Shown in pieces: positions 7,045 to 10,669 of a stretch of 37,771 nucleotides of DNA. The stretch's first letter is position 1. The number at the start of each line of letters is the position of its first letter. Under the pieces are notes generated by a model. That model was given only the letters and a program-made list of their open reading frames with translations. It did not search any database and was not told the DNA's origin. Position numbers and translations under genes: made by a program. The DNA comes from Candidatus Cybelea sp. (GTDB lineage Bacteria > Vulcanimicrobiota > Vulcanimicrobiia > Vulcanimicrobiales > Vulcanimicrobiaceae): contig DASXFZ010000035.1 in the NCBI GenBank assembly GCA_036489315.1, positions 1 through 37,771 of the forward strand, read 5' to 3'.

Positions 7045-7848
7045 CTACTCGGCCAGTACGGCGCGCAGCTTCTCCAGGGCCTTGGCCTGGAGCCGCGAGA
7101 CGTGCATCTGCGACACGTTCAGCCGTTTGGCGATCTCCGTCTGCGAGACCGATTCGTAAAAGCGCAAGTAGATGATGACGCGCTCGCGCCCGCTGAGTAC
7201 GCCGAACGCGCGCTCGAGGTTCGCCCGGTCCTCCAAGAGCTCGAGCCGGGCGTCGGTCACCCCCACCGTGTCGGCGAGCGTCTGCGACTTTTTGTCGGCG
7301 TCTCCGGAGACCTCGCTATCCAGCGAGAGAAGGTTGTAGGCCTGTCCCAGCTCTTGGGCTTCGAGGATCTCGTCTTCGCCGGCGTTGAGATGTTCGGCGA
7401 GCTCGGCGACGGTCGGGCTGCGGCCCAGCGCAATCGCAAGCTTATCGCTTGCCCGGTTGACGGCGAGATTGAGCTCCTGCAGGCGCCGAGGCACCTTGAC
7501 GGCCCAGCCTTTGTCGCGAAAGTAGCGCTTGATCTCGCCGACGATCGTCGGCGTCGCGTAGGTCGTAAACTCCACGCCTCGCTCGAGATCGAATCGATCG
7601 ATCGCCTTGAGCAGGCCGACGGTGCCGACTTGAACGAGATCGTCGAGCGGCTCGCCGCGATTGGCGAACTTTACGGCTAAGAAGCGCACCAAGTTAAGGT
7701 GTACGACGACCAGCTCGTCGCGCACCCGTTCGTACTCCGCGTCGGGCGTCTCGGGTGAATCGTCATGCCGCCGGCGCAGCTCGATGAAGCCGGCAAAAAG
7801 CGCACGCGTTCTCTCGCGGTCGCGGCGTGCGTCGTCGCGTTCGAACAC
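7045..7848 (-). CDS. SigB/SigF/SigG-family RNA polymerase sigma factor
   Basis: A 267-residue group 3 sigma-70 factor, which would redirect RNA polymerase to stress or developmental promoters. Region 2 spans about 44-113 with DDLVQVGTVGLLKAIDRFD (69-87) and the -10 recognition segment FTTYATPTIVGEIKRYFRD (94-112), diagnostic of the SigB/F/G type. Region 3 is about 125-195, and region 4 (about 212-262) has the helix-turn-helix SQTEIAKRLNVSQMHVSRL. The start is GTG at 7848, overlapping the last base of the RsbW-like gene, so expression is coupled to its predicted antagonist. It is the last gene of the operon cysteine desulfurase - DUF948 - YtxH - RsbV - RsbW - sigma. The predicted control is partner switching: RsbW holds the sigma factor until dephosphorylated RsbV competes for it. 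Confidence 0.94.
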   Translation of the reverse strand: MFERDDARRDRERTRALFAGFIELRRRHDDSPETPDAEYERVRDELVVVHLNLVRFLAVKFANRGEPLDDLVQVGTVGLLKAIDRFDLERGVEFTTYATPTIVGEIKRYFRDKGWAVKVPRRLQELNLAVNRASDKLAIALGRSPTVAELAEHLNAGEDEILEAQELGQAYNLLSLDSEVSGDADKKSQTLADTVGVTDARLELLEDRANLERAFGVLSGRERVIIYLRFYESVSQTEIAKRLNVSQMHVSRLQAKALEKLRAVLAE

Positions 7849-8282
7849 TAGGTAGCGGAAGCCACCCTTTTGACCATCAGCAAATCCGTTCCCATCTGCG
7901 CGCTGACGTCGTAACTGACCTCGTCCATCAGCGTGCGGATCAGGAAGATTCCCAGCCCGGCGATGCGCGCCTCATCGAAGTTCATGTTCGGCGCCTCAGC
8001 CAGGTGCACGCCGTGACGTCCGCTGTCGCGCACGCGGATTCGCAGCGAGTCGGAGAGCGCTTCGCACGTCAAATCGATGAACTCGCCGTGCCCCTCGTGC
8101 TGAATTACGGCGGTGCACGCTTCGGCGACGGCAAGCTTCACGTCCTCGATCTCTTCGATCGAGAAGCGCAGACGGTTGGCGACCGTCGCGGCCGCCAGGC
8201 GCCCCAGAGCGACCCACTCCGGCCGGGACGGGATGCGCAGCTCGACGAGTTCTCGCTGCACGTGCTCGACCGCGGGATTCAC
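7848..8282 (-). CDS. rsbW: RsbW-like anti-sigma factor (GHKL ATPase fold) with altered N-box
   Basis: A 144-residue HATPase_c protein of the RsbW/SpoIIAB class, expected to bind the adjacent sigma factor and phosphorylate RsbV. Seen: an N-box region AEACTAVIQHE (53-63), a G1-box-like RDSGRHG (85-91) and a good G2 region GLGIFLIRTLMDEVSYD (109-125), ending in GTDLLMVKRV. In the N-box the Mg-coordinating Asn (E-A-C-T-N in the family) is Ala58, checked on the DNA. This makes kinase activity doubtful, while sigma binding could persist. The start is GTG at 8282 in a GTGA overlap with rsbV; the stop overlaps the sigma gene start by one base. The context strongly supports the anti-sigma role. Confidence 0.9.
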   Translation of the reverse strand: MNPAVEHVQRELVELRIPSRPEWVALGRLAAATVANRLRFSIEEIEDVKLAVAEACTAVIQHEGHGEFIDLTCEALSDSLRIRVRDSGRHGVHLAEAPNMNFDEARIAGLGIFLIRTLMDEVSYDVSAQMGTDLLMVKRVASAT

Positions 8283-8623
8283 GCCAAGGCCTTCATCGCG
8301 GCGTCCTCGCTCTCGAAGATGCCGAAGATCTTTACCAGGCCGGTGATGTCGAAAATCTTCTTTATCTGGGGATTCGTGCAGACGAGGTTGACCGAACCGC
8401 CGTGCTCGCGAACGCGTTTGAGGCCGCCGATGAGCACGCCTAGGCCGGTCGAATCGATGTATCGCACCTTTTCCAAATTGATGACGAGGTAATAGACGCC
8501 TCGATCGATCAGCTCACCGATCGCGTCCTTCACCTTTGGTGACGTGTAGACGTCAATTTCGCCGCTCAGGTCGACGACGTAACAATCGCCCGGCGCCTCG
8601 CGCACGTTCACCTTGATGTCCAA
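8279..8623 (-). CDS. rsbV: RsbV-like anti-anti-sigma factor (STAS domain)
   Basis: A 114-residue STAS-domain protein that would free the sigma factor by binding RsbW when unphosphorylated. The phosphorylation site sits in VRYIDSTGLGVLIGG, with Ser58 in the same place as Ser58 of SpoIIAA and Ser56 of RsbV. The N-terminus MDIKVNVREAPGDCYVVDLSGEIDVYTSP is the standard first strands of the fold. The start chosen is TTG at 8623, preceded by GAGGG with suitable spacing and lying just after the stop of the YtxH-like gene; the frame is open further upstream, but that part lacks STAS character and overlaps ytxH. The stop overlaps rsbW (GTGA). Confidence 0.93.
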   Translation of the reverse strand: MDIKVNVREAPGDCYVVDLSGEIDVYTSPKVKDAIGELIDRGVYYLVINLEKVRYIDSTGLGVLIGGLKRVREHGGSVNLVCTNPQIKKIFDITGLVKIFGIFESEDAAMKALA

Positions 8624-8627
8624 GTCT

Positions 8628-8966
8628 TTATCCCTCGGCTTTCCGCTGCAGCTCGTCGCGCGTCTCTTGCGCGGCATTCTGGGCCTCGGCGACCGCCGCG
8701 TCGATGTTCGAGCGAGCGTCCTCGACGACTTGGCGCCCGCGTTCGTAGAGGTCCGAGACGCTGGACTGCCAGACTGAGGTAACGCTCGTAACCTTATCAC
8801 GCAGATCGCCCGTGGCGTCCATCGCAAAATCTCCCGCTTCTCGCGCCTTACCGGCAATCCGGTCGCGAGCCTCTTCCTGCGTGACGATCACCGCTGCGGC
8901 CGCACCGGCGGCTGCACCGATGAGAAGACCGGCGAGGAAACCTCCCCCGCCATTGCCCTTGCCCAT
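8628..8966 (-). CDS. ytxH: YtxH-like general stress protein
   Basis: A 112-residue protein with a Gly-rich N-terminus, a single membrane-like helix (GFLAGLLIGAAAGAAAAVIV, about 9-28) and a long charged, probably coiled-coil tail (TQEEARDRIAGKAREAGDF onward to the end). This is the YtxH/gas-vesicle-like domain layout. In Bacillus subtilis ytxG-ytxH-ytxJ are co-transcribed general stress genes; their molecular role is unclear. Here it sits between the DUF948 (YtxG-like) gene and rsbV, with a ribosome binding site (GGAG) in the short gap upstream. It is probably membrane-anchored with the tail in the cytoplasm. Confidence 0.8.
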   Translation of the reverse strand: MGKGNGGGGFLAGLLIGAAAGAAAAVIVTQEEARDRIAGKAREAGDFAMDATGDLRDKVTSVTSVWQSSVSDLYERGRQVVEDARSNIDAAVAEAQNAAQETRDELQRKAEG

Positions 8967-8973
8967 GATTTAA

Positions 8974-9354
8974 TTACTCCCTAGCAGTTGACTCTTTTCC
9001 CGTAACCAAGCGTCGTAAACCGGCCGTTATTCCGCTGGCGACGGCGCCGGCGTTCACGATCGCCGGTGAGACCGCGCTCTTGGTGAGATCGGCGGTGCGC
9101 GAGAGGGCCTCTGCCGTCTCGCCGAGCGACTTGGTCACTTCGTCAACATGAACCAGTGTGTTTGCGACCGGAACGCCGACGTTCTCGAGCTGCCGATCTA
9201 CCTCGTCGAGCGTCGTCCGCAGTCGCGTCAGCGTCTTCGCAAGCGCCAGGCTTGCGACCAAGATGCCAATGCCGACGAGCAGGGCTCCCACCCCGACCAG
9301 AACGTCGAGGATGAACCCGCCATACTGCGTCCCGTTCAAAGCTTCTGCCTCCAA
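8974..9354 (-). CDS. DUF948 (YtxG-like) membrane protein
   Basis: A 126-residue protein with one strong transmembrane segment (about 13-39, ILDVLVGVGALLVGIGILVA) followed by an amphipathic helical region (TLTRLRTTLDEVDRQLENVGVPVANTLVHVDEV...), the pattern of DUF948, the family of B. subtilis YtxG. The function is unknown; members are stress-induced membrane proteins. It is 7 bases upstream of the ytxH-like gene and 24 bases downstream of the cysteine desulfurase-like gene, so it is most likely part of the same transcript as the rsbV-rsbW-sigma genes. Confidence 0.78.
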   Translation of the reverse strand: MEAEALNGTQYGGFILDVLVGVGALLVGIGILVASLALAKTLTRLRTTLDEVDRQLENVGVPVANTLVHVDEVTKSLGETAEALSRTADLTKSAVSPAIVNAGAVASGITAGLRRLVTGKESTARE

Positions 9355-9378: not shown

Positions 9379-10554
9379 CTACCCATTCCCGCCGCTGGGC
9401 ATCGCAAACGCGCAACGCTCGCGAAGCCGCGCGACCAGCGACGGTACGGCGGCCACGACCCGGTCGATCTCGCCGGCGGTCGTCGTTGTTCCTAACGAGA
9501 AGCGAATCCCGCTGCAGGCTTGGTTCCCAGGATACATCGCGGAAAGGACGTGGCTGGGCTCGAGCCTCCCCGAGGTACAGGCGCTCCCTGCAGAGACCCC
9601 GATTCCAGCCAGATCCAAGGCAACGAGCAGCTCGCCGGCCTCCACCTCCTCGAAGCTCATATTGGAAAGGTTGGCGAGCCGTGGCGCGCCGGCGCCGTTG
9701 ACGCTGACGCCCGGAACTGCGCGGCGTAGCTCGCTCTCGAGGCGGTCGCGCAACGCCCCGATACGAGCGACGGCACTCGCGCGCTGCGCGACGGCCAGCT
9801 CGAGTGCGAGCGCCAAACCCGCAATGCCCGCAACGTTCTCCGTGCCGGCGCGGCGGCCCGACTCCTGGCCTCCGCCCAGGGCCAGCGGCTGCAGCGGCAC
9901 GCCTTCACGCACGAAGAGCACGCCCACACCCTCCGGGCCCCCGAATTTGTGAGCGGAGAGCGAGAGCAGGTCCACCCCCAGCTCGGCGACGTCGACCGGC
10001 AGCCAGGCCGGGGCGGCAACGGCGTCGGCATGGAGCAAGACCCGGCGAGCCCGGGCGATCGCCGCCAGCTCGGCGATCGGCTGCACCGTCCCCACCTCAT
10101 TGTTTGCATACATCACCGCGGCGCAGATCGGCTGAGAACCGAGAGTCCGCTCGAACTCTTGGGGATCGACCCTTCCGTCTGCGTCGACGGGGATCGCGCT
10201 CCCGGGCGCCGCACGTTCGCGCGACGGCTCGAGAACGGCCAGAACGGAGTGATGCTCGACCGCCGACGCGATGACGCGCGCGCCCGCAGCAGCAGCCTGC
10301 AGTACGCCGAGTATTGCCAGATTATTCGCTTCGGTTCCACCGGAAGTAAAGACGATTTCGGTACGCTTCGCGCCGAGTACCCGGGCAACGCGATCCCTCG
10401 CGTCGTCGAGCACGGCGCGCGCGAGACGTCCCTCGAAATGCAACGAGCTGGCATTGAAACCGCAACGGAGCGACGTTTCCGCTATGAGATTCGCGACCTC
10501 CGAGCGCATCGGTGTAGTAGCGGCGTGATCGAGGTAAATTCGTTCAGAATTCAC
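9379..10554 (-). CDS. cysteine desulfurase-like PLP enzyme (class V aminotransferase)
   Basis: A 391-residue protein of the NifS/IscS family, which takes sulfur from cysteine for Fe-S clusters and thio-modification. Seen: YLDHAATTP (7-15), SGGTEANN (71-78), the PLP-stacking histidine in VEHHSVL (His101), NNEVGTVQPI, the PLP lysine in SAHKFGGP (Lys203), RAGTENV, and the persulfide cysteine in GSACTSGR (Cys326). The conserved Gln after the PLP Asp (DAVQ in the family, Gln183 of IscS) is Ala180 here (HADAVAAP), checked on the DNA. The start chosen is GTG at 10554, with GGGAG six bases upstream; an in-frame extension to 10608 lacks family similarity. First gene of the stress-type operon; no thiolase or scaffold gene is adjacent, so its sulfur acceptor is unknown. 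Confidence 0.88.
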   Translation of the reverse strand: MNSERIYLDHAATTPMRSEVANLIAETSLRCGFNASSLHFEGRLARAVLDDARDRVARVLGAKRTEIVFTSGGTEANNLAILGVLQAAAAGARVIASAVEHHSVLAVLEPSRERAAPGSAIPVDADGRVDPQEFERTLGSQPICAAVMYANNEVGTVQPIAELAAIARARRVLLHADAVAAPAWLPVDVAELGVDLLSLSAHKFGGPEGVGVLFVREGVPLQPLALGGGQESGRRAGTENVAGIAGLALALELAVAQRASAVARIGALRDRLESELRRAVPGVSVNGAGAPRLANLSNMSFEEVEAGELLVALDLAGIGVSAGSACTSGRLEPSHVLSAMYPGNQACSGIRFSLGTTTTAGEIDRVVAAVPSLVARLRERCAFAMPSGGNG

Positions 10555-10589
10555 AGGTCGCTCCCAGAGTTTTGCTCTAATATCGGGTT

Positions 10590-10669
10590 GTGCGAAGCTC
10601 CAACGCACACTCCGAGAAGTAGCAACGGGAAACTGGCGGTTCGAGAATCACTCGAACCGCCTCTTTTTT
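10590..10669 (+). ncRNA. candidate small RNA ending at an intrinsic terminator
   Basis: The plus strand of this intergenic region carries TAATAT at 10578-10583 as a possible -10, then a stem-loop (TGTGCG / CGCACA with a 9-base loop, about 10590-10610) and then the terminator hairpin at 10635-10669. No plus-strand gene precedes the terminator, so an RNA of roughly 80 bases is a reasonable reading. No good -35 is visible and I recognise no known RNA family. Its 3' part is antisense to the last codons of rarA. The alternative is a terminator that merely guards against antisense transcription. Confidence 0.3.
10635..10669 (+). terminator. intrinsic terminator, plus-strand orientation
   Basis: A perfect 11-bp stem (GGCGGTTCGAG, loop AATCA, CTCGAACCGCC) followed by TCTTTTTT, i.e. 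a textbook Rho-independent terminator for plus-strand transcription. All annotated genes on both sides run on the minus strand. Read on the minus strand the same hairpin contains the rarA stop codon in its loop and is followed only by AGTTTCCC, a weak U-tract, so it may also stabilise or partly terminate the rarA message. Confidence 0.65.

Follow-up and report, generated by a model that had tools for sequence, protein, structure and literature searches.

In the genome of a bacterium of the Candidatus Eremiobacterota, assigned to Candidatus Cybelea sp., the genes for two small, apparently membrane-anchored proteins, one of the DUF948 (YtxG/FacZ-like) family and the other YtxH-like, lie immediately before an rsbV-rsbW-sigma gene array. 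This arrangement raises the question whether the two proteins are outputs of the sigma factor, inputs to the partner switch that would control it, or simply old neighbours of that switch. We believe, at a probability of roughly 0.78, that the locus is a self-amplifying, partner-switched general stress operon of the SigB/SigF type, with DUF948 and YtxH among its outputs.

The five genes and their products

The genes in question occupy the minus strand of the window (the whole 37.8-kb stretch of DNA that was analysed) in the order DUF948, YtxH-like, RsbV, RsbW and SigB/SigF-type sigma factor, as confirmed by a check of the window coordinates. From upstream to downstream, the features of the locus are:

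9379..10608, minus strand: cysteine desulfurase (iscS/nifS type), conserved upstream flank, outside the switch
9385..9409, minus strand: GTTTGCGATGCCCAGCGGCGGGAAT, predicted promoter of sigma-B type serving DUF948, within the 3' end of iscS
8974..9354, minus strand: membrane protein of the DUF948 (YtxG/FacZ-like) family with a TTG start codon; a single hydrophobic helix at the N-terminus is followed by a long one
8996..9020, minus strand: GTTTACGACGCTTGGTTACGGGAAA, predicted promoter of sigma-B type serving ytxH-rsbV-rsbW-sigma, within the 3' part of the DUF948 coding sequence
8628..8966, minus strand: small YtxH-like membrane protein; a glycine-rich hydrophobic helix at the N-terminus is followed by a long one
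8279..8623, minus strand: RsbV, anti-anti-sigma factor (STAS) with a TTG start codon; Ser58 is in the phospho-acceptor motif, IDSTG
7848..8282, minus strand: RsbW, anti-sigma factor (HATPase_c_2); N-box Asn replaced by Ala58
7045..7848, minus strand: SigB/SigF-type sigma factor; sole TIGR02980 match over the cut-off in the genome
4357..6969, minus strand: alaS, conserved downstream flank, outside the switch

A first-pass annotation of this DNA had placed DUF948 and YtxH directly upstream of rsbV-rsbW-sigma with minimal spacing, and the coordinates bear this out: the gap between DUF948 and ytxH is 7 bp and that between ytxH and rsbV 4 bp, and further downstream rsbV overlaps rsbW by 4 bp and rsbW overlaps the sigma gene by 1 bp. 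The sigma factor belongs to the SigB/SigF/SigG family (TIGR02980, 287 bits at a curated cut-off of 234.35), of which it is the only member over the cut-off in the whole source genome. Unlike B. subtilis SigB, it misses the cut-off of the SigB equivalog, TIGR02941 (222 against 315 bits), and on these profile scores it is not classed as SigB itself. The other two components of the switch are recognized readily, RsbV by PF01740 (85 bits, cut-off 22.6) and TIGR00377 (100 bits, cut-off 53), and RsbW by PF13581 (80 bits, cut-off 27.4).

The two proteins encoded upstream are more diverged from their Pfam models. The window DUF948 protein matches PF06103 at 25.7 bits (E 1.3e-5), below the Pfam cut-off of 37.2, and the YtxH-like protein matches PF12732 at 18.1 bits (E 0.0037; cut-off 37.5). 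The names can nevertheless be considered settled because the aligned orthologs match the respective families at E<=0.001, in 38 of 38 cases for DUF948 and 27 of 34 for YtxH. Across the phylum, the gathering score of PF06103 is exceeded in 5 of 118 genomes, and the YtxH proteins of other classes reach about 72 bits with PF12732. Structure models of both proteins are all-helical with low pTM (0.31 for YtxH and 0.41 for DUF948) and suggest, with modest confidence, that each consists of one hydrophobic helix and a long helix.

State of the partner switch

The phospho-acceptor serine of RsbV, Ser58, is present in 148 of the 150 other aligned rows. In the RsbW kinase, the intact N-box contains both a glutamate and an asparagine. 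In the window protein, this motif reads EACTAVIQHE, with Glu54 kept and the asparagine replaced by Ala58, and the overall score of the protein is below the cut-off of the RsbW equivalogs. The alanine is found in the window and the rows from the same genus, and asparagine in 71 of 139 rows, which are not all independent; among relatives, this position is highly variable. Within the source genome, there are 13 HATPase_c_2 matches including this RsbW, and the asparagine is present in all six of the others that were read. Given the absence of this residue, kinase action in this switch may depart from the usual mode, and because the RsbV serine is nearly invariant while the RsbW asparagine is lost, RsbV may be phosphorylated by a kinase other than RsbW. 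Phosphatases of the PP2C family (PF07228, the RsbU/SpoIIE kind) have eight matches in the genome, none of them in the operon, and these external phosphatases are the expected place of signal input.

RsbV is conserved at a level of at least 68% across 80 loci of the class and, in many of the relatives, more strongly than the adjacent alaS and iscS products, a pattern that looks as if this protein had many partners.

Conservation within the class

The 80 class loci were gathered by a scan with RsbV and, accordingly, were chosen for having this RsbV; they come mainly from Candidatus Eremiobacterota, the rest being labelled 'bacterium', WPS-2 or Vulcanimicrobiota, or apparently misnamed. The complete DUF948-YtxH-RsbV-RsbW-sigma order was found in 73 of these loci, some of the exceptions being cut by contig ends; rsbV is the gene immediately after ytxH in 79 of the 80, and in 73 of them alaS lies no more than 6 kb beyond the sigma gene. 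A second set of class relatives, partly the same genomes (41 searched, 39 with a DUF948 match), showed the five-gene order in 37 of 38 loci. By these counts, the arrangement is far beyond chance. The association is not unique to the genome under study, and the earlier proposal that target and regulator form one unit gains substance from its retention in both sets. One shared reading frame of rsbW and sigma was seen (L131), possibly a frameshift, and there was no ytxH-rsbV fusion protein among the loci examined.

Two further observations concern individual loci. The YtxH match in L064 (G024, C175:3550-3717) has an internal stop codon, so this gene may be broken or misassembled. Between rarA and sua5, locus L059 carries three LptA-like stretches in tandem, compared to a single one in the window.

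Sigma-B-type promoter motifs and a second putative target

The search pattern for promoters, GTTT followed by GGGWAW, was set from the SigB/SigF consensus with a spacer of 12-18 and narrowed to N15 after hits were seen, the wider spacers being used again for the locus counts and window shuffles. In the 37.8-kb window, GTTT-N12-17-GGGWAW has exactly two matches, both in this locus, and so does GTTT-N15-GGGWAW; in 60 shuffled versions of the window, sites with the wider spacing occurred 0.47 times on average and at most twice. The two sites end about 30 bases before the start codons of DUF948 and ytxH. An exact match inside the reading frame of DUF948 is present in 21 of 78 loci (the window included) against 0.15 expected when codons are drawn synonymously from local usage; this embedded site is, by that measure, conserved far beyond what synonymous codon choice allows. 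With up to one mismatch, the motif precedes DUF948 or ytxH in 59 of 75 class loci compared to 8.8 in shuffles, and is absent from this position in the remaining 16; these locus counts overstate the number of events because related loci are not independent. The motif is rare before rsbV (2/80), rsbW (1/80), sigma (6/77), alaS (4/73) and iscS (4/67), and in lineages without the embedded site GTGT-N16-GGGWA often occurs before DUF948. Thus, the feature expected of an autoregulated sigB-type operon, a sigma-B-type motif inside or before it, is present here as a sequence motif. Extension of the motif to other classes was rejected: the exact form lies upstream of ytxH in 3 of 12 sigma-bearing loci, at distances of 205 to 499 bases.

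The motif agrees with published ones, namely GTTTAA-N15(+/-2)-GGGTAT for the B. subtilis SigB promoter and KTTTW-N12-17-GGGWAW for the Bacillales consensus, both according to PMC9847131. In the entire source genome, there are 15 exact GTTT-N15-GGGWAW sites compared to six for the reversed control. Two of these belong to this locus and one precedes a gene for a KGG repeat protein (PF10685, over the cut-off); the other 12 are not before an obvious same-strand gene and most look like chance, so the motif alone predicts poorly. Among 60 relatives, 25 showed the KGG protein, and the motif precedes the first KGG gene in 22 of these 25 loci but the second in none of 22. In one locus with a tandem pair (L318; G000, C64:3500-6500), the motif is located about 90 bases upstream of the conserved start region of the first gene, with none at the second.

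Distribution beyond the class

The loci from other classes and other phyla were picked by a YtxH match and therefore say nothing about genomes that lack one. The other-class sample comprises 26 YtxH loci from 24 genomes, and rsbV directly follows ytxH in 23 of them, that is, in 23 of the 24 genomes. Behind these 23 pairs, rsbW and sigma are found in 12, a contig end in one, and neither gene in ten (G043, G045, G049, G051, G054, G056, G059, G062, G066, G075). At E<=1e-60, no SigB/F-type sigma factor was detected in any of these ten genomes, three of which are 69-75% complete. The ten span seven families, one of which (f15) shows both the sigma-bearing and the sigma-less state, so that loss of sigma is likely at least there. 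DUF948 was recognized by the class profile in one of the 23 loci, the Pfam model adding G050, where it is beside ytxH, and alaS lies within 6 kb in one of 23. In five other-class genomes, the RsbV linked to ytxH is 61-67% identical to that of the window, compared to no more than 40% for the other RsbV-like proteins. One genus (g55; four genomes, G055, G068, G072 and G081, loci L288-L291) has rsbV-rsbW-sigma without a recognized ytxH; ABC-transporter-like genes are located upstream.

In other phyla, where we took from the listed YtxH matches those that exceed the Pfam cut-off and set the weaker ones aside, rsbV directly follows ytxH in 3 of 63 loci from two families. Two genomes of one family (G163, G310) have ytxH-rsbV-rsbW-sigma-alaS with mreB upstream, and the third (G238) has a DUF948-ytxH-rsbV trio without sigma. 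The linked RsbV of G163 is less similar to the window RsbV than an unlinked one (46 vs 57% identity), and in G200 the switch lies nearby on the opposite strand (L201). A SigB/F-type sigma factor over the cut-off was found in six other-phylum genomes; in two of these, both from one family, ytxH is part of the operon. Elsewhere among these phyla, alaS adjoins DUF948-ytxH (L209, G187) or ytxH (L220, G271) without a switch, and one genome has rsbV-rsbW-sigma-alaS without ytxH (L293, G268). Conservation of the gene order across phyla, which the first-pass annotation had proposed as a check, thus holds through this phylum and in a few distant cases but is not widespread elsewhere. As a separate observation, ytxH-rsbV-rsbW-sigma is flanked in another phylum (L221, L230) by mreB on the upstream and alaS on the downstream side, and the window likewise has these two genes on either side.

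Outputs, inputs or neighbours

The most probable role of DUF948 and YtxH is that of targets of this sigma factor within its own operon, as suggested by the sigma-type motifs before both genes and the same motif before the GsiB-like KGG gene. Under this scenario, RsbW would keep the sigma factor inactive until unphosphorylated RsbV releases it; the freed sigma would then read the GTTT-N15-GGGWAW promoters before DUF948 and, within the DUF948 coding end, before ytxH, yielding more DUF948, YtxH, RsbV, RsbW and sigma, along with the GsiB-like KGG stress protein encoded elsewhere. The two membrane-anchored helical proteins would serve as front-line outputs that guard the envelope or the division site. 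We infer from sequence that the sigma factor reads these motifs, that it is controlled by partner switching and that DUF948 and YtxH are protective. The role in cell division reported for FacZ/YtxG, a DUF948 protein (PMC10914604, PMC12716459), fits an envelope-protecting output.

Alternatively, one or both proteins could be inputs that feed the state of the envelope to the switch, as the first-pass annotation had suggested; YtxH, for instance, might hold RsbV or RsbW at the membrane until a disturbance of the envelope. We regard this as unlikely, although the juxtaposition of ytxH and rsbV in ten other-class genomes with no such sigma detected, as well as in the sigma-less trio of G238, is not explained by output from the sigma factor, and the close similarity of the linked RsbV proteins to that of the window points in the same direction. 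The promoter anatomy, however, points to output, ytxH-rsbV fusions were not encountered, one genus retains the switch without ytxH, DUF948 mostly goes undetected in the other classes, and in G163 it is the unlinked RsbV that is closer to the window protein. Among the papers listed by our literature searches, none describes a physical link between either membrane protein and RsbV or RsbW. An input role is more plausible for YtxH, via RsbV, than for DUF948. Conceivably, YtxH and RsbV comprise a functional pair separable from sigma, in which YtxH would tie RsbV to the membrane and the envelope state would set how much RsbV is available to RsbW-type partners, the sigma operon being one of several outputs; we consider this version equally doubtful. 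Should DUF948 and YtxH be both inputs and outputs, they would form a feedback loop.

It is also conceivable, if quite improbable, that alaS is an old neighbour of DUF948-ytxH as well as of rsbV-rsbW-sigma, and that these two groups are found together merely by having stayed in place. The loci of other phyla in which alaS accompanies DUF948-ytxH or ytxH without the switch, or the switch without ytxH, are compatible with such a history. By contrast, the ytxH-rsbV pair is kept in the other classes although alaS is seldom within 6 kb there, and the sigma-type promoter motifs that the genes share link them by function.

Comparison with known stress operons

The order rsbV-rsbW-sigma is common to this locus and the sigB operon of B. 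subtilis (PA-rsbR-S-T-U-PB-rsbV-rsbW-sigB-rsbX). The predicted internal sigma-B-type promoter is another likeness, given that, according to PMC7522486, a SigB promoter inside the B. subtilis operon drives rsbV-rsbW-sigB. The window operon differs in that DUF948-ytxH hold the promoter-proximal place and in that rsbR, S, T, U and X are missing among the five genes and the identified flanks. DUF948 and YtxH are also encoded next to each other in the ytxG-ytxH-ytxJ cluster of B. subtilis, which lies apart from sigB, whereas in the window the pair leads the sigma operon, with too little space between ytxH and rsbV to accommodate a ytxJ.

PMC8346170 lists promoters for the SigB homologs of Streptomyces coelicolor, among them GTTTGC...GGGTAC and GTGTAG...GGGAAC, that are similar to the GTTT and GTGT forms before DUF948; that species, however, has nine SigB homologs with cross-recognition, against one SigB/F-type sigma factor over the cut-off here. 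The B. subtilis GsiB is likewise a KGG repeat protein behind a SigB-type motif, but in Eremiobacteria the KGG gene is mostly a tandem pair with the motif at the first gene only. Taken with the description of gsiB as a target of SigB whose motif is close to consensus (PMC9847131) and the entries of ytxG, ytxH and ytxJ in a SigB regulon list (PMC7824861), the motif before the KGG gene makes for a close parallel with Bacillus.

The core of the Bacillus SigB response, that is, rsbV-rsbW-sigma, YtxG, YtxH, GsiB and the GTTT/GGGWAW promoter, would thereby be extended to a little-studied soil phylum with very few cultures, the first isolate of which is described in PMC9758169. In addition, the presence of ytxH beside rsbV in genomes where no such sigma factor was detected makes RsbV a concrete candidate partner for the small protein YtxH.
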